The notes under the pieces: model-generated | Databases searched by the model: none | Told to the model about the DNA's origin: nothing | What the model saw: only the letters and a program-made list of their open reading frames with translations | Shown here: positions 28,540-35,889 of the stretch, one piece after another | Position numbering within the stretch: the stretch's first letter is position 1 | Layout: each line of letters starts with the position of its first letter | Source of the DNA: a virus | Direction: 5' to 3' (one strand) | Virus record (IMG/VR): IMGVR_UViG_3300042197_002798 | Location: 1 to 35,987 of that record | DNA: 35,987 nt | Made by a program: the position numbers and the translations under genes

Positions 28540-29850
28540 TCAGAAAGGTTTTCTTCCTATAGATTCTCTCACTAAATTAAGTCTAGTGAAAGTTTTATTA
28601 GTTGTGATTAAATGACACAAATCTACTATCATATATAGACCTCCTTTTCTATGACTCACTGACTTTGAAGTATTGGTTGTCATCTCTGGGAAATCACAAT
28701 ACACAATATCTCCAGCTCTAAGACCAAAATCACCCGTGATTGTCATTGACATTTTCTGAGTGAACAACTGATTATATCTCATTGATGATTGACGGATAAT
28801 CGAATCAATATCATAATCATTTTCTTTTGATTTCTTTAACTGCTCTTCTAAATTTTTTCCTGGCGGTAAGACTCCTTTCTTATCATATCGAACAACAACA
28901 CGAGTTGATTTATCTTGAAGTCCTAAGTCCTTTGCAATGACTGGATGTTCCGTGCCGCCCATCTTATCTTGATCTTCTTGATTTGTGTGCGATGTTTCGT
29001 TTCTTCTTGGTTTGTTATCATAAAAGTTTGTTGCTCTTAATTCTGTTCTGAATAAAGATCCTGTCACCAAAGATTTTTCTACATCAATTGAACTATCATA
29101 GGAATAATTCAATATCTTAGCATCATAACTGACAGGAAGATCAGGAGTTCGAGTATAGATTAATTTCCTCTTATACTTTTGTCCAAATAACTTATCAATA
29201 GACTTAAATTTATATCCATCGGCAGTCTCAAAGAATAGATAACCAGCACTCTTTCCAGTCGAGCCTGTAGGAATTGATCTCTTTGCCAACCAAGCGCACT
29301 TGTAGAATGGTTTTTCAGATCTACCGAGGAAACTAAAAAGATTTTCTGTTTCGTCAGTGTCAATAACCTTTGGAGTCTTTAGTGCGTTCTTAAGTATAGA
29401 ATCCACAGAATCTGATATTTTTCCATCGTATCTTTTTGTGACTCTAGTTTCAACGAGTTCATTATCCAAACACTCTTTAGACCACAGATCAATCATGTAT
29501 GTCAGTACATTTTCTTGTACCGCATCATGTATGGCTTTGATTCTAAATTGACTATCTCCAGAAAATTCTAACTTTTGCCCGTATCCATCTTCCATTAGAA
29601 GAGTAACTTCTTCTCCACCAGTTAACTTAAGATCTTCCATCTCCAAAGCAGAAGAACCTTCACCAGTAGTTCTTTCTCCAGAGTCAACTAATATAGAACT
29701 GACACGAACTGTATTATCTAAAATACTTTCATAGTATTGAAGTTGAACACATCCTAAAGAAACGTCCAAACTCTTTCCTTCGTTTGACGTAATTTCAAAC
29801 TTAGATATTTCAGATTCTTTTGCGGTAATATTGGGAGTTTGATATGTCAT
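28540..29850 (-). CDS. gp27-like baseplate hub protein (436 aa)
   Basis: A 436-residue protein in the position and of the size expected for the T4 gp27 hub (391 residues in T4). It has a beta-rich N-terminal tube-like domain (LDVSLGCVQLQYYESILDNT). A central segment, LFSFLGRSEKPFYKCAWLAK, is typical of the cyanophage version, and the C-terminal barrel ends TFTRLNLVRESIGRKPF. gp27 forms the trimeric ring that joins the tail tube to the gp5 needle. Its ATG overlaps the tape-measure-like stop (ATGA). Identification rests on pattern and context. Confidence 0.7.
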   Translation of the reverse strand: MTYQTPNITAKESEISKFEITSNEGKSLDVSLGCVQLQYYESILDNTVRVSSILVDSGERTTGEGSSALEMEDLKLTGGEEVTLLMEDGYGQKLEFSGDSQFRIKAIHDAVQENVLTYMIDLWSKECLDNELVETRVTKRYDGKISDSVDSILKNALKTPKVIDTDETENLFSFLGRSEKPFYKCAWLAKRSIPTGSTGKSAGYLFFETADGYKFKSIDKLFGQKYKRKLIYTRTPDLPVSYDAKILNYSYDSSIDVEKSLVTGSLFRTELRATNFYDNKPRRNETSHTNQEDQDKMGGTEHPVIAKDLGLQDKSTRVVVRYDKKGVLPPGKNLEEQLKKSKENDYDIDSIIRQSSMRYNQLFTQKMSMTITGDFGLRAGDIVYCDFPEMTTNTSKSVSHRKGGLYMIVDLCHLITTNKTFTRLNLVRESIGRKPF

Positions 29851-32312
29851 CCGATAAACGATGGTATTGTACTATTTACTCCAGGAAAATCAATGTTCGA
29901 TGTTCCTTGTAGCGGGGGTGTTCCCGATCCTGGGATTTCTTTTAGAATAATCTTTTCTTTTAAAATAAAAGTAGTTCCACCACTTTCAGCATATGATGGC
30001 ATCATAGCGAGTTGTTGCGCGGTATCCATAACTTTCGGACTTGATGAGGCAATTTGAGCAGCTGGTGCTGATGTAGATGCAACTGCTCTTTGAGTTCTCG
30101 TTTGAGTAGTAGTTGGTCTTCCAGTGTATTCGAAATGGACAGGATCTCCAGGAATTGCCATATATTTCCATCCATATCTTGGACCATTTCTTAAAAACCA
30201 ATCATATCCAGGAGTACCTGTTTGAATATCTAAAGCGATACCAAATCCATGTCTGGAGGTTCCCACCTTAGCAACAACGGGATATTTTTTAGAATCAATC
30301 AATGCTTGTTGGTGAGCGAGACTTCGATATGCACTAGTAATAAGAATTGTAATTCCTTCTCTTTTTGCTTGAGCATCAGCAGCTATGAAAGCAGCAGCTG
30401 CATCATTTCTCAACATTGCAGCGTTACCATACCAGTCATAATAATCTGGTCTGCCATATAGCGTTCCAACTCTTGTAAGTTCCTCTGGTTTTAATCTTCC
30501 ATTTGTACCATCTAAAGGAAGAGAAGAATATTCTACTGTTCCCTTAACATTTGGAGAAACTTGTGCTGGTTTTAATTTTCCTGCACGGAATGATGATATT
30601 TGAGCTCCTCCTGGTTCAAATCCAAATGCATGGCCATGTCTCCTTTGCTCAGTATCATTTGCGAGATGATTATTCGCATCTTCAAAAGCAATCGCTCTAA
30701 AACTATCTCTAGGACCAACGAAAGTCGCTGCAGATCTTTGTCTATTTTGATCCAATAACGCACCAGCAACTGTTTCTAAATTTGCTCTGGTTCTTCCTTT
30801 TCCATACTTTTCAACGAATCTAATCGCAGAATCTTTATCTTTAATTTTATTCCACTCATCAATTGTTCCATAATCTCTTACTGGTTGAAACTGTCCCCCA
30901 TTTCCCTGCATGATTACTGATCTAATATCACCTGGCCACGAAGGTGATGCAACGCGATTGTAAATTACCTGAGCGACATCAGCAGCGCCTTGTGGATGTC
31001 CATTTTCCAACAATGCTCCAACAGCAAGCAACCAAAAGTCTGGTTGATCACTACTAACTTTTACTATACCCCCACCACCAGGAGGTGGTTCAAAAGTATC
31101 GGTCCTTTTTGTTTTTAAAATTTCAGAAAATATCTTTGCTAATCTTCCCTCAATGCTTCTCTCAAAAAGTTTTCCTAAAGCAATTCCTATTTCCTCTGCA
31201 TTTGTTGCCTTTCTGGTGATTCCCCTAGTAATTGCACCACCTTCAGCCATAGCAGCAATTGTACTAACAATATTTGAAACAGATGTATTTGCTTGAGCGT
31301 CAATACTAGGACCCATCATATGTGCCAGAGAATCTCCAAAAGTTTTATAAATTCTTCTGTCTGGTTTCTGACCCATACTAATATCAACTGCCGCTGCCAT
31401 CAAAGGCCCAATGAATGGAACTTTACTTAATGTTGATGATGTTGACATTAATGTATTCAGTGGACCTGGTTCATTTCTTTTCGGTGAAGATGGGAATACC
31501 ATTTCAATTTTTTGTTTTCCTCCAATATCTTTTCCTGGTTGCGTTATTTGCCTATAAATTACAGGAACAGTTTTAGTTTCTACTTTTTGTATTGCTCTAC
31601 TAATTGGTCCACCAACTGGTCTACCCTCTCTTGTGATGCCACCAGGAGCCATTTTTTTGACATAACCACCAGATGCTTGTTGTGGAACTGGAGTTTTTTC
31701 TTTGGGCGGTTTGTATAGTCCCAACGTCATGATCGAATTGATCATGTCCTTAAAATCATTTGTAAATGTGTCAAATGTTTTTTGAGCGTCTTTACCACCA
31801 AGTTCATTTACTTTTTGAGAAAGATCATTTTTAAATTTATAACCACCTTCAATTAATCCACCAGCAATATCAACGGTTCCCCTAATGATGGCACCAAAAG
31901 TATCCATCGCTGCAGGAAGTTTTGATACAACTGTTCTTAAGGGTGAAAGTTTGTCCGAATAATTTGTTAGAATATATCCTAAGAATGTATATCCAAGAAA
32001 ATTTTGAACCGTATCAAAAATACCTGTTTTTGGTAAACTTGGAAGATTTAATTTAGATGCTTCTTTTGGTTGTTTTTGTTCTAATTTTCCCTCTTTTTTT
32101 TCTCTCTCTTCGTTTTCTTTTCTTGTCTTTTTTTGCTTTCTTGTTTTTTCTTTTACTTTTTTAGTAGTATTGACAACTTTGTCTACGTTAATTAATTTCT
32201 TTTTGATCTTTAAGTTTAAAAGATCATCAATCTTTTTATCATAGGCAGCAGCCATCCTTTCACCTACGGAAAGTTTTGCTGGTGGTAGTAATTTCTGAGG
32301 ATTGACTGCCAT
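29847..32312 (-). CDS. Tape-measure-like protein with two peptidoglycan hydrolase domains (821 aa)
   Basis: An 821-residue protein. Residues 35-90 are Lys/Glu-rich coiled coil. GIFDTVQNFLGYTFLG at 97-112 is shared with the upstream protein, and a Gly/Pro linker follows. At about 420-545 is a SleB-type cell-wall hydrolase domain (LLAVGALLENGHPQGAADVA, then VIYNRVASPSWP), with a likely catalytic Glu in LLENG. At about 615-730 is a VanY/M15 peptidase domain (TSAYRSLAHQQ, SRHGFGIALDI, PVHFEYTG) with complete His/Asp/His zinc ligands. Both glycan and peptide bonds could be cut during DNA injection. T4 instead places a lysozyme in gp5. Confidence 0.8.
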   Translation of the reverse strand: MAVNPQKLLPPAKLSVGERMAAAYDKKIDDLLNLKIKKKLINVDKVVNTTKKVKEKTRKQKKTRKENEEREKKEGKLEQKQPKEASKLNLPSLPKTGIFDTVQNFLGYTFLGYILTNYSDKLSPLRTVVSKLPAAMDTFGAIIRGTVDIAGGLIEGGYKFKNDLSQKVNELGGKDAQKTFDTFTNDFKDMINSIMTLGLYKPPKEKTPVPQQASGGYVKKMAPGGITREGRPVGGPISRAIQKVETKTVPVIYRQITQPGKDIGGKQKIEMVFPSSPKRNEPGPLNTLMSTSSTLSKVPFIGPLMAAAVDISMGQKPDRRIYKTFGDSLAHMMGPSIDAQANTSVSNIVSTIAAMAEGGAITRGITRKATNAEEIGIALGKLFERSIEGRLAKIFSEILKTKRTDTFEPPPGGGGIVKVSSDQPDFWLLAVGALLENGHPQGAADVAQVIYNRVASPSWPGDIRSVIMQGNGGQFQPVRDYGTIDEWNKIKDKDSAIRFVEKYGKGRTRANLETVAGALLDQNRQRSAATFVGPRDSFRAIAFEDANNHLANDTEQRRHGHAFGFEPGGAQISSFRAGKLKPAQVSPNVKGTVEYSSLPLDGTNGRLKPEELTRVGTLYGRPDYYDWYGNAAMLRNDAAAAFIAADAQAKREGITILITSAYRSLAHQQALIDSKKYPVVAKVGTSRHGFGIALDIQTGTPGYDWFLRNGPRYGWKYMAIPGDPVHFEYTGRPTTTQTRTQRAVASTSAPAAQIASSSPKVMDTAQQLAMMPSYAESGGTTFILKEKIILKEIPGSGTPPLQGTSNIDFPGVNSTIPSFIG

Positions 32313-32315
32313 GGT

Positions 32316-34184
32316 TTATTGTACTATCCCATAGATTTGTGCGTTTTCCATTCTACGATTTCCTGGTGCCGTTGCTGAGAATGATGGTACTTCAGATCCT
32401 CCTGATTTTTGTGGTATTGTCGATGGTGCGTTTTCAACTGTTGGGGGAAGAGTAATTACATTTGCTTTACTCTTTGATACTGGCATTAATCCAGGAGTTC
32501 TTGGTGAAGATGAACTTAACTTGGCATAACGTTCAGGGGCAACCATCATATCTTCAACAGTTCCATATCCATATTGCTGCGCTCTAACTGTGGTATTTCT
32601 CTGTTGCATCATATTGTAGACATACATTCCTAATTGCATAGCCGCAGAATACTGTGGTATTCTTTCAAATGCTTGACGAACTGCAGGCGTTGGTGCTGAT
32701 CCAGTTCCTCCTTTTTCAGCAGGAACATATCTTGGTCTTGGAATACCTAATGGATTTCTTTTTGTTTTTGTACGATCCCAATCAAGAAAGTCTCTTGAAA
32801 AAACTCCTCTATCAGGTCTTCCAAATATTGATGGTTTAGATCCCTTTGCAAAATTAGCATCACTTTGACCTCTTTGTTTTAGGTCATCCCGCATCAAATC
32901 AAACCAACTAGCACGACTTTCTCTTGGAACTCGAACATTCCTTCCTTTGTTCCACCAATTCATAAATCCACCGACTAATCCACCGTTTCTAGCAAATTGA
33001 ATATTGTTTGCAAATTTTGGTTTGTTTGCGTTTGGACCACCAAACATTCTATTTAAATTAAGTAAATTGCCAACACCAACTGCTCTTACAGCGGCACGAT
33101 TCATTACAACTTCACCTGGTTGCAATGCTGTCAGTTGAGTATCTGGTCCAGCACCAGAAATTTTAAGTCCAGTACTCTGATCAATTAACCCGCCAGATTC
33201 AAATAAACTTGGAAATAATTTTGGAGATCCATCTGGATTTCTTCCATATGGAGCTTCTTGATTTTCTTTTACTTGCGCTGCAGTTTTCGGTTTTGTTTTT
33301 ACATCTGGTACACGTCCAGGAGCAACTCCAGGTACAGTTCCTTCATATCCAGTTAATCTATATTCTTTTCCAGTTACCTGGCGCATCTTTGCAGCACCAG
33401 ACTCGCCCAAAGCAGTTACTCCCGCAGCAGCTGCAACTAATGGAAATCTAAATGCAAGTTTTGTAATTTCACCAAGAACAGTTCTTATAAAACCACCAAG
33501 AGGAGTCAAAAACAAACCAGCTGCACCCAATAAAGCAGGCCAAAAATCACCAATGAATTTACCTATTGCAGCAACTTTAGTTTTATTTTCTGGATTTGAT
33601 AACCAATTCAGTGCTTCATTAATTCCTCTACCAAGAAAAGTATAAAAAAGATAATTGTAAATCGTATCAAATATTCCTCTAACTGGTGCAAACAATTTTT
33701 TGGCAGCCGCCATCACTTTCTTTGCACTTGATTCTAACGATTCCTCTTTCTTTTTCCTTCTTGCATTTTCTTCACTTTTTCTATTTTCTTCCGCTTCTTT
33801 CTTGTCTTCCTTACTCTGATCACTCAGATTTTCTGAAATTGATTCAACAATCGCACCAATACTCGCCAAAGATTTTACGATTGGGGCAGATCCAATTCCT
33901 CTTGCACCAGGAAGAAGTTTCTGTCCGACTCTCCCAACAGATGTTATACTATTGACACTGATTGTTTTCGCTTTTGGTTTGAAGCGACCAACCTTTCCTC
34001 TTACTCTTTTCCTTTCGTTTGCAAGAATTGCTTGTTCTTCTGCTTGTAAAGTATTTTTTCCTTGAACTTGCGCTTCTTTTAATAAGACAAGATATGTCTC
34101 GTAGTCCAGATCAAAAACATCCTCAAGACCAACGAGTCTTAGAATTCTAGCATCAATAGTTTCTGTAACTAATTGGTCACGCAT
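32316..34184 (-). CDS. Tape-measure-like tail protein (622 aa)
   Basis: A 622-residue protein. It has an N-terminal helical part, a very charged coiled coil at about 120-155 (EDKKEAEENRKSEENARRKK), then GIFDTIYNYLFYTFLG at 170-185, and hydrophobic segments near 200-260 (PALLGAAGLFLTPLGGFI). Near 350 is the motif ALQPGEVVMNRAAVRAVG, seen in tail tape-measure proteins. The coiled coil plus GIFDT-x-x-N block is repeated in the next gene, so the two are paralogues. It directly follows the chaperone-like pair and overlaps the 54-residue ORF by 8 bases, as tape-measure genes usually do. Confidence 0.7.
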   Translation of the reverse strand: MRDQLVTETIDARILRLVGLEDVFDLDYETYLVLLKEAQVQGKNTLQAEEQAILANERKRVRGKVGRFKPKAKTISVNSITSVGRVGQKLLPGARGIGSAPIVKSLASIGAIVESISENLSDQSKEDKKEAEENRKSEENARRKKKEESLESSAKKVMAAAKKLFAPVRGIFDTIYNYLFYTFLGRGINEALNWLSNPENKTKVAAIGKFIGDFWPALLGAAGLFLTPLGGFIRTVLGEITKLAFRFPLVAAAAGVTALGESGAAKMRQVTGKEYRLTGYEGTVPGVAPGRVPDVKTKPKTAAQVKENQEAPYGRNPDGSPKLFPSLFESGGLIDQSTGLKISGAGPDTQLTALQPGEVVMNRAAVRAVGVGNLLNLNRMFGGPNANKPKFANNIQFARNGGLVGGFMNWWNKGRNVRVPRESRASWFDLMRDDLKQRGQSDANFAKGSKPSIFGRPDRGVFSRDFLDWDRTKTKRNPLGIPRPRYVPAEKGGTGSAPTPAVRQAFERIPQYSAAMQLGMYVYNMMQQRNTTVRAQQYGYGTVEDMMVAPERYAKLSSSSPRTPGLMPVSKSKANVITLPPTVENAPSTIPQKSGGSEVPSFSATAPGNRRMENAQIYGIVQ

Positions 34185-34341
34185 TTTGTTGCTGCTTGAG
34201 TCTCTCTTCTTCTAAGTGCTGATCCAACAAACCAACATAGATGTCTCGTTCCCAAGGCATCATGTTTTCTATCTCAGTTAATGAATATTTATGGTACTGG
34301 ATGAGAGAAAAATTAAGTTTATAGTATGAAGCTAGGTCCAT
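34177..34341 (-). CDS. Small tail assembly chaperone-like ORF, probably a frameshift extension of gp26 (54 aa)
   Basis: A 54-residue ORF, MDLASYYKLNFSLIQYHKYS, continuing LTEIENMMPWERDIYVGLLD and ending EEERLKQQQNA. It has the pattern of small baseplate/tail assembly proteins beside gp26 in cyanophages. It lies in the -1 frame relative to gp26. That frame is open from the slippery A-AAT-TTT at 34368-34362 through to this ATG, so a gp26 fusion of about 298 residues can be made. It may also start on its own, with a weak TAGG upstream. The position just before the tape measure matches the G-GT chaperones of other tailed phages. Confidence 0.65.
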   Translation of the reverse strand: MDLASYYKLNFSLIQYHKYSLTEIENMMPWERDIYVGLLDQHLEEERLKQQQNA

Positions 34342-34368
34342 GTGGACTAGGCCTATGCGAAAAAATTT
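34332..34368 (-). promoter_or_regulatory. Candidate -1 programmed ribosomal frameshift signal
   Basis: The slippery heptamer A-AAT-TTT is in the correct frame (X-XXY-YYZ) three codons before the gp26 stop. An imperfect hairpin, CTAGTCC-ACAT-GGACCTAG with one bulged C (34349-34332), begins 10-12 bases later. The -1 frame is open from the heptamer into the 54-residue ORF. Confidence 0.6.
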
Positions 34369-35072
34369 GCCAGACCCTCCAGAACCACTTCACTTTCAAT
34401 ACCACTCTTTGGATTCTTAATCTTAACAGTGTGCGACAGTTTAGGCATGGTCTCAAAGAATTTTTCAATCTGTTGGAACTGTTGAGTATTGAATTGATCG
34501 AGAAACTCCATCAGTTCTTTTTGAGTTACGTCGGCACAACTCCAAACTTCATCTCCCTGATAAACTTTATCAATACATGATGCAACAAGATCAAATGATT
34601 GGTCGATTAAGTTTGATCCAGAAAAATCAAAGTTATTCTTGATAAACTGATCCAATGATGGGTATTTCATTTCCATCATAATTGAATCATCAACTTGAAT
34701 TTTATTCGTGTGCTTTTTATCTTTTACGACTTGAATTTCATCAACAGAAATTGTCACCGGAACTGTGATGTCTTCATCATCTGGGCAAATTACATTGACT
34801 TCAATCTCTTCCCCCACAGACTTACCACGAATATTGAGGAAAAGATATTCAATATCAAATGTGGGAAGTGATTCAATCTTCACACCTTTTGATAAAATGC
34901 AATTTTTGATAACAGTTTTGATCGCTGACGAGATTTCCTTCATGTTCTCCGATTCCAGAGCGAGAACAAGAAGTTTTTCTTCTCTAACTAAAAATGGTCT
35001 GTACTGAATTGTTTGTCCAGTTGAAGGCAAATCCAACTCATACGTTGGCGTAGAAATCTTAGGTAAAGGCAT
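34353..35072 (-). CDS. gp26-like baseplate hub/tail assembly protein (239 aa)
   Basis: A 239-residue protein of the T4 gp26-type baseplate family. It starts MPLPKISTPTYELDLPSTGQ, followed by IQYRPFLVREEKLLVLALES, the family's typical N-terminus. KSVGEEIEVNVICP near residue 80-93 and an acidic beta segment follow, and it ends VVLEGLANFFA. Its last codons hold a slippery AAATTTT, and a -1 shift would add the next ORF. A late promoter motif, AATAAATA, lies 23 bases before the ATG. It probably chaperones or nucleates hub and tape-measure assembly. Confidence 0.78.
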   Translation of the reverse strand: MPLPKISTPTYELDLPSTGQTIQYRPFLVREEKLLVLALESENMKEISSAIKTVIKNCILSKGVKIESLPTFDIEYLFLNIRGKSVGEEIEVNVICPDDEDITVPVTISVDEIQVVKDKKHTNKIQVDDSIMMEMKYPSLDQFIKNNFDFSGSNLIDQSFDLVASCIDKVYQGDEVWSCADVTQKELMEFLDQFNTQQFQQIEKFFETMPKLSHTVKIKNPKSGIESEVVLEGLANFFA

Positions 35073-35094: not shown

Positions 35095-35102
35095 TATTTA
35101 TT
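35095..35102 (-). promoter_or_regulatory. T4-like late promoter motif (AATAAATA)
   Basis: AATAAATA on the minus strand, 23 bases before the gp26-like ATG and overlapping the stop of the upstream gene. Confidence 0.5.
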
Positions 35103-35889
35103 ATGCCAATTCTGGTGGGAATGGAAGACCAACTCCAGCTGGGAAGGTGTTTGGATCGAAGAAATCACCCCAAGGAAAATCTTGAGGAACAACACTTGGA
35201 TTATTGTTTGAAGGCGCAGCCAAAAGATATCTAGTGTAAGTGAATGAAACTGTACATTTTAATACTGATGGTTGATCGTAAGACACGGGAATGGAGTTAA
35301 TACTAATTGGAAATGCATTTACAAAAGTGTATTCTAAATGATCCAATTGTGGATCTCCCAAAAATTGACCTCCAGGATATCTAGTAGAAAAATCAGAATT
35401 TTTCTCAAATTTTAAAATTCTGATTGTAGATTTATAGTCGTCGGGAAATCTTACTCTTGTATTATACGTAGGCATTATAGATGATGTTGTATCAACATTT
35501 GGTTGTTTTTTATATTGACCACTTATTCTGTCATTATTAATGAAAGTTTTCCATGCATGAAAATATTTAAGAATATCATATTCGGCATCAACATAAAAAG
35601 AAAAATCAATTCTATCATCATATGTTCTTCTATATGCATGTCTCTCAGTTTGTCCAGTATAGTCATTATTGATTTCATGTGTCAAAAAAGAAGATCCTGG
35701 AAGATTTGCTTCATGACATAAAATTGAAATTTTATCTGTTAGTTCATTACTAAATGAAAATGGGAAGTCTGTGGTTTTAATCCAACTCAACATCTTGCTG
35801 GGAGGAGTTAATTCCACACCAAAAAGATGCGTTAACGCAGGTTTTAAAATAATATTTCGTATGCTGTCTATACTTCTGGCTTGTGGCAC
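35101..35889 (-). CDS. Tail-tube-like baseplate protein, gp54/gp48-type tube initiator (262 aa)
   Basis: A 262-residue protein. Its middle has a tail-tube-like fold pattern: ILCHEANLPGSSFLTHEIND-type segment, then TERHAYRRTYDDRIDFSFYV and YDILKYFHAWKTFI, as in T4 gp19, gp48 and gp54. The C-terminus carries a Pro/Phe-rich tail (DFPWGDFFDPNTFPAG). In T4 the gp48 and gp54 proteins cap the baseplate and start the tube; which of the two this is cannot be settled here. Translation appears to start at GTG (35889), with AGAAG six bases upstream. It precedes gp26 and the tape-measure genes. Confidence 0.65.
   Translation of the reverse strand: MPQARSIDSIRNIILKPALTHLFGVELTPPSKMLSWIKTTDFPFSFSNELTDKISILCHEANLPGSSFLTHEINNDYTGQTERHAYRRTYDDRIDFSFYVDAEYDILKYFHAWKTFINNDRISGQYKKQPNVDTTSSIMPTYNTRVRFPDDYKSTIRILKFEKNSDFSTRYPGGQFLGDPQLDHLEYTFVNAFPISINSIPVSYDQPSVLKCTVSFTYTRYLLAAPSNNNPSVVPQDFPWGDFFDPNTFPAGVGLPFPPELA

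Follow-up and report, generated by a model that had tools for sequence, protein, structure and literature searches.

A very probable -1 ribosomal frameshift joining gene 26 to 'gene 51' in a T4-like cyanophage

The window, which is the whole 35,987-nucleotide stretch of viral DNA analysed here, carries a gp26-like gene that is followed by an ORF of 54 residues, usually annotated as a separate gene 'gp51 baseplate hub assembly catalyst'. The locus raises the question of whether this small ORF is a gene of its own or the C-terminal part of a longer gp26 product that is reached by a change of reading frame. An earlier note on this DNA had proposed a -1 frameshift joining the two and a tail-chaperone role for the products, and both proposals are strongly supported by our comparison of relatives. 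We hold with high confidence that a -1 programmed ribosomal frameshift yields two tail assembly chaperone forms from one gene.

The locus and its slippery heptamer

The genes and signals of the locus, in the order in which they are met on the coding strand, are as follows.

35101 to 35889, minus strand: tail-tube-family gene upstream of gp26 (PF23849, E=1e-13; phrog_45, E=4e-39)
34353 to 35072, minus strand: gp26-like gene, putative chaperone short form, 239 aa (PF12322 and phrog_150 matches; stop codon TAG at 34355-34353)
34375 to 34380, minus strand: Shine-Dalgarno-like GGAGGG, probable upstream stimulator, 9 nt before the heptamer (sequence and relatives)
34362 to 34368, minus strand: overlapping heptamer A_AAT_TTT, canonical, not conserved (6/216 relatives)
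34359 to 34365, minus strand: slippery heptamer T_TTT_TTC, conserved putative frameshift site (in-phase conservation and tree)
34177 to 34359, minus strand: -1 frame extension of 60 codons, RIGLVHMDLASYY...QQQNA, plus TGA at 34179-34177 (translation and relatives)
34332 to 34350, minus strand: bulged hairpin CTA-GTCC-ACAT-GGAC-C-TAG, probable stimulator, 8 nt after TTTTTTC (clade covariation)
34177 to 34341, minus strand: 54-aa ORF with the usual annotation 'gp51 baseplate hub assembly catalyst' (phrog_634), read here as encoding the C-terminal end of the long form
32316 to 34184, minus strand: next gene, 622 aa, tape-measure candidate by position only (weak phrog_37649 and phrog_1283 matches)

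The gp26 product matched PF12322 (T4_baseplate) in a profile search with E=6e-75 and 252 bits, against a curated cut-off of 24.5, and phrog_150 with E=5e-80. The 54-aa ORF matched phrog_634 (E=9e-26) and also positions 241-281 of phrog_150. Some members of phrog_150 probably carry both the gp26 part and the extension, because the small ORF matches the last positions of that family. The gp26 frame was found to end with GCA-AAT-TTT-TTC-GCA-TAG, and the coordinates, frames and overlaps given in the earlier note all agreed with the sequence. Its claim that the -1 frame is free of stops was likewise borne out by translation, where this frame reads R-I-G-L-V-H-M... into the ATG of the small ORF to give a product of 298 residues.

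Only two in-phase X_XXY_YYZ heptamers were found in the window gp26, A_AAT_TTT and T_TTT_TTC, both at codons 234-235 (zero-based), and a slip at either would give the identical 298-aa product. To place them among relatives, 380 loci with a gp26 end were taken from IMG/VR scans and annotated phage records, and these were reduced to a set of 216 relatives by clustering at 90% DNA identity, with a single locus kept from each cluster. T_TTT_TTC/T was observed in phase near the end of gp26 in 378 of the 380 loci; the two that do not conform are L175, where a stop occurs early, and L091, which comes from an Ackermannviridae phage and reads A_ATT_TTC. Among the clustered relatives, 207 have TTTTTTC and 9 have TTTTTTT. 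The conserved slippery heptamer in these alignments is T_TTT_TTC, at positions 34365-34359.

The heptamer named in the earlier note was A_AAT_TTT. Although it is present, canonical and in phase in the window, it is not what the relatives conserve: 6 of the 216 have it, a count that rules it out as the conserved frameshift site, and it is lost already in the nearest ones. As an example, L002, one of the closest relatives, naturally has GCC-AAT where the window has GCA-AAT. Loss of the heptamer in close relatives had been offered as a test that could refute the frameshift; such a test would misfire, because AAATTTT is lost in the closest relatives although it is not the conserved signal, while T_TTT_TTC is kept. 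A frameshift on A_AAT_TTT itself would be a variant compatible with the preferred explanation, and its canonical form, its phase and the same resulting protein speak for it in the window. It is nonetheless unlikely, given its rarity and the fact that all of the nearest relatives lacking it have kept T_TTT_TTC. This heptamer may add to slipping in the window phage.

The six T's of the conserved heptamer showed no changes in a 211-tip gp26 tree, against a mean of 64.8 changes at upstream third-codon positions. The codon preceding the heptamer ends with T in all 216 relatives, where 134 would be expected from codon use, and its residue varies between S, N, A, D, G, T and H. As an internal control, gp26 contains another Phe-Phe pair (F205-F206) that is invariant or nearly so, and TTT TTC was found in only 7 of 228 other Phe-Phe codon pairs of the same genes.

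The -1 frame extension and the status of 'gene 51'

In 209 of the 210 relatives in which the extension ends inside the locus, the -1 frame was observed to run for 56 codons or more without a stop. The alignment of relatives that the earlier note had called for shows conservation of the open -1 frame but not of AAATTTT. Coding conservation was found in frame 0 before the heptamer and in the -1 frame after it, with the switch located exactly at the site, upstream of where gp51 usually starts. Between the heptamer and the usual ATG, the mean number of changes was 13.5 at the second position of the -1 codons and 44.8 at the third.

The exception is S-SCSM1 (L083, MK867354.2, 1914-1940), the only relative of the 210 without an open -1 extension. 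Here the spacing from the gp26 stop to gp51 is 11 nt longer, so that the extension lies in the +1 frame and the -1 frame is closed. The 11-nt insertion did not turn up when other records were searched for it. Either the record is in error, or the extension is dispensable or made in another way in this phage.

The conservation of the codons ahead of the ATG as -1 frame protein bears directly on the possibility that there are two separate genes, in which case gp51 would be translated alone from the ATG at 34341, through coupling to or re-initiation after termination of gp26, and no ribosome would need to shift frame. This arrangement would agree with the position of the window ATG, 11 bases past the gp26 stop codon, and with the listing of gp51 as a gene by annotators. 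However, the ATG is not conserved among relatives, and in 38 relatives whose extension is intact, its first 10 codons include no ATG, GTG or TTG. No Shine-Dalgarno sequence was found before the gp51 ATG in the relatives having that ATG. We reject independent translation of gp51 as a general mechanism on the grounds of the start-less relatives and this lack of a Shine-Dalgarno sequence. Two separate genes would also leave the invariant T_TTT_TTC and the Shine-Dalgarno-like element described below unexplained, and we regard them as very improbable for the window phage.

The best reading of the 54-aa ORF is that it encodes the C-terminal segment of the chaperone's long form. 'Gene 51', though annotated separately, is probably no gene of its own, because frameshifted ribosomes would add the gp51 segment as a tail to gp26. 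In the records of S-PRM1, S-WAM2, S-CAM4, ACG-2014b and ACG-2014d, we noticed that the extension is present without any annotation.

Signals flanking the heptamer

The earlier note had named a downstream hairpin, which is only one of two probable stimulators, and had missed the GGAGGG upstream of the heptamer, which is much better conserved. Hexamers able to pair with the anti-Shine-Dalgarno sequence were found to end 8-10 nt upstream of the heptamer, where the mean pairing energy falls to -6.5 kcal/mol against a background of +0.98 kcal/mol, and an element at -4 kcal/mol or better is present in 95% of relatives. The element is built from Glu-Gly codons that are biased to GAG GGN or GAA GGG against normal codon use. 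For example, the glycine codon GGG occurs at this position in 57 of 199 cases compared with about 6.5% elsewhere, and GAA GGT occurs in only 4 of 199, even though each of its two codons is the commonest. The element cannot serve the possible gp51 starts because they lie about 23-32 nt away, which is too far. This distance, and its presence in 85% of the relatives that lack a gp51 start codon, rule it out as a gp51 start signal. GGAGGG is probably an upstream stimulator of the frameshift.

Downstream of the heptamer, the folding signal across relatives was observed to peak in a 45-nt stretch starting 5 nt after it (mean z -1.84). The stem seen in the window's clade, GGUCC-AUAU-GGACC, has 41 cells changed on both sides compared with 20.1 expected, a value reached in none of 500 shuffles, although related sequences can exceed shuffles of this kind without any structure. 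With the protein held fixed, the synonymous choice in one stem codon also favours pairing (265 pairs against 254.9, sd 2.4). The bulged hairpin of the earlier note exists and, judged across the 216 relatives, goes well beyond chance, with compensatory changes in this clade, but it is weak in the window sequence alone (z -1.12, with another pairing favoured by the minimum free energy) and is not universal. As judged from these relatives, it is a probable stimulator that is conserved in the window's clade.

Other groups differ in this region. The P-SSM2-like group has a longer stem of 11 bp, in which 89% of cells are paired compared with 24-45% when the stem is slid, and which shows little covariation. 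In this clade (L191-L263) the stem is formed by AGUAUGGCUCA and UGAGUCAUACU within the first 42 nt past the heptamer, in place of the short hairpin. A clear stem downstream of the heptamer was not found in the Syn10-like group. The longer P-SSM2-like stem and the absence in the Syn10-like group rule out the hairpin as a universal feature.

The positions of these signals also bear on transcriptional slippage, in which mRNAs one base longer or shorter would be made on the T run and then translated into the long form. The run of six T's is what suggests this mechanism, but RNA-polymerase slippage usually takes about nine bases or more, so six are short for it. Furthermore, the phase of NNT_TTT_TTC, the distance of the Shine-Dalgarno-like element, which is appropriate for a ribosome, and the hairpin all point to the ribosome, and we consider slippage by the polymerase to be exceedingly improbable.

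Under ribosomal frameshifting, most ribosomes would read gene 26 to the TAG and produce the 239-aa short form, and a minority would pause at T_TTT_TTC. The pause would probably be aided by contact of the anti-Shine-Dalgarno sequence with the GGAGGG of the mRNA, about 9 nt upstream, and, probably, by the hairpin about 8 nt downstream of the heptamer. The two Phe-tRNAs would next move back by one base and pair again (TTT TTC to TTT TTT), after which the shifted ribosome would continue through R-I-G-L-V-H in the 'gp51' frame to give the 298-aa long form. The conserved site, the frame switch, the flanking signals, the homology to T4 gp26 and gp51 and a predicted fold suggestive of a chaperone are what the sequence shows, and we infer the occurrence of slipping, the slip rate and the role in tail assembly.

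A comparable cassette is known from the E. coli dnaX gene, where a Shine-Dalgarno-like element is located about 10 nt before the heptamer and a hairpin follows downstream. The window site shares the upstream element and the downstream hairpin with dnaX, which differs in being a cellular gene with an A AAA AAG heptamer and a product that is truncated rather than extended.

Chaperone likeness, the wider family and T4

Tail assembly chaperones of phages are generally known to use -1 frameshifting. The gpG and gpG-T chaperones of lambda were reportedly described, together with the conservation of the tail frameshift, by Xu, Hendrix and Duda in 2004. As in lambda, the short chaperone of the window would end at a slippery site with its C-terminal extension in the -1 frame, and two products of one gene would be located among tail genes just before a long ORF. 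The lambda heptamer is, from general knowledge, G GGA AAG instead of T_TTT_TTC, and the window family differs further in that the site has a Shine-Dalgarno-like element on one side and a hairpin on the other and in that the proteins are gp26 and gp51 of T4-like phages. If the likeness to gpG and gpG-T extends to function, the short form, together with the less abundant long form, would coat the tape measure protein and deliver it as the tail is assembled.

The model predicted for gp26 is of good quality (pLDDT 88, pTM 0.83). The top VIA-align matches of its residues 1-96 among solved structures were 3fgx (Z 8.1), 2ob9 (7.8) and 3klu (7.3), followed by a match at 4.9, where a Z under 8 can reflect a common arrangement; 2ob9 is the HK97 tail assembly chaperone and 3klu is YqbN. 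A Foldseek search of the model against the PDB gave no significant match (2ob9 E=1.4), and a PDB sequence search with gp26 or the extension gave nothing meaningful. The model is suggestive of a tail-assembly-chaperone-like fold in the short form.

The gene context places gp26 between the tail-tube-family gene and the 622-aa ORF, which has only weak phrog_37649 and phrog_1283 matches. Of the gene order given in the earlier note, the 8-base overlap between the 54-aa ORF and this next ORF (start at 34184) holds, but the label 'tape measure' is positional and is not shown by the sequence. A profile comparison of the 622-aa ORF with T4 gp29 was not significant, and homology between them is not supported by it. 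We also observed that the N-terminal parts of the 622-aa ORF (32316-34184) and of a neighbouring 821-aa ORF (29847-32312) both match phrog_35997, so these two tail genes may share a domain. The 821-aa ORF also has cell-wall hydrolase and VanY domains.

The arrangement of heptamer and extension was also found in Pelagibacter, Sinorhizobium, Vibrio, Aeromonas 65.2 and Stenotrophomonas phages and in Citrobacter Ci1, Delftia PhiW-14 and Agrobacterium Atu_ph04. In two Ackermannviridae-like phages, Salmonella phage PLL1 (L091) and Vibrio phage D509 (L396), the homologous -1 extension is kept without T_TTT_TTC; the site is A_ATT_TTC in the former and A_CTT_TTC in the latter, and the slip may use a non-canonical site in these phages.

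A profile was built from 209 fused gp26 and extension proteins. T4 gp26 is homologous up to the slip site, its match running from position 10 to 236 and ending at the Phe-Phe pair. The full-length T4-type gp51 is homologous through the C-terminal extension, as the matches of gp51 of 44RR, Aes012 and Metamorpho run through it and T4 gp51 also has this C-terminal segment. The T4-type gp26 ends have lost the slippery heptamer. It appears from these matches that T4 and its kin carry the short form (gp26) and the long form (gp51) as two separate, divergent genes, whereas the window phage would have one gene and a frameshift. The two-gene arrangement was not found in the window, which has one gp26 match and a second ORF of 54 codons; the record is a 36-kb fragment, and a further copy may lie elsewhere in the genome.

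A literature search gave no direct report of a frameshift in cyanophage gp26, with Vladimirov et al. 2022 known to us through citing papers only, and no report of a Shine-Dalgarno-like element or covarying hairpin at the gp26 site. The PRFect paper refers to Vladimirov et al. 2022 on T4-like phages with short and long chaperone genes and no frameshifting (PMC10885494), and Vladimirov, Gautam and Davidson 2022 (Virology 566:9) is also cited for T4-like tail chaperones in PMC12846349. The latter paper describes a -1 frameshift with a GTTTTT motif in the tail chaperone of the Pakpunavirus Adele (PMC12846349). As in the window, TAC-N ends with a poly-T slippery site, all relatives have an open -1 frame and the downstream ORF is annotated as a separate hypothetical gene. 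Adele differs in belonging to the Vandenendeviridae, and no Shine-Dalgarno-like element or hairpin is mentioned in the portion of that text consulted (PMC12846349). Judged by sequence comparison, the gp26/gp51 frameshift is almost certainly real, ordinary in kind but well marked.

For the sampled cyanophage-like (Kyanoviridae) relatives we lean towards a broader reading, held with much less assurance than the frameshift itself. 'Gene 51' would be no gene in these phages, and the long form would be made solely through a three-part cassette of a Shine-Dalgarno-like stimulator, an invariant U_UUU_UUC/U and a clade-specific hairpin, with T4 and its close kin using a second, in-frame fused gene copy instead.

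In many T4-like genomes gp51 is listed as a separate 'hub assembly catalyst', and in some nothing is listed at this place. Should the long form arise by frameshifting, such annotations would be wrong, and the role of T4 gp26 and gp51, which is an old question, would become a question about tail chaperones. The frameshift in most of the T4-like lineages sampled and the second gene in T4 and its kin would then offer a natural comparison between two ways of setting a protein ratio.
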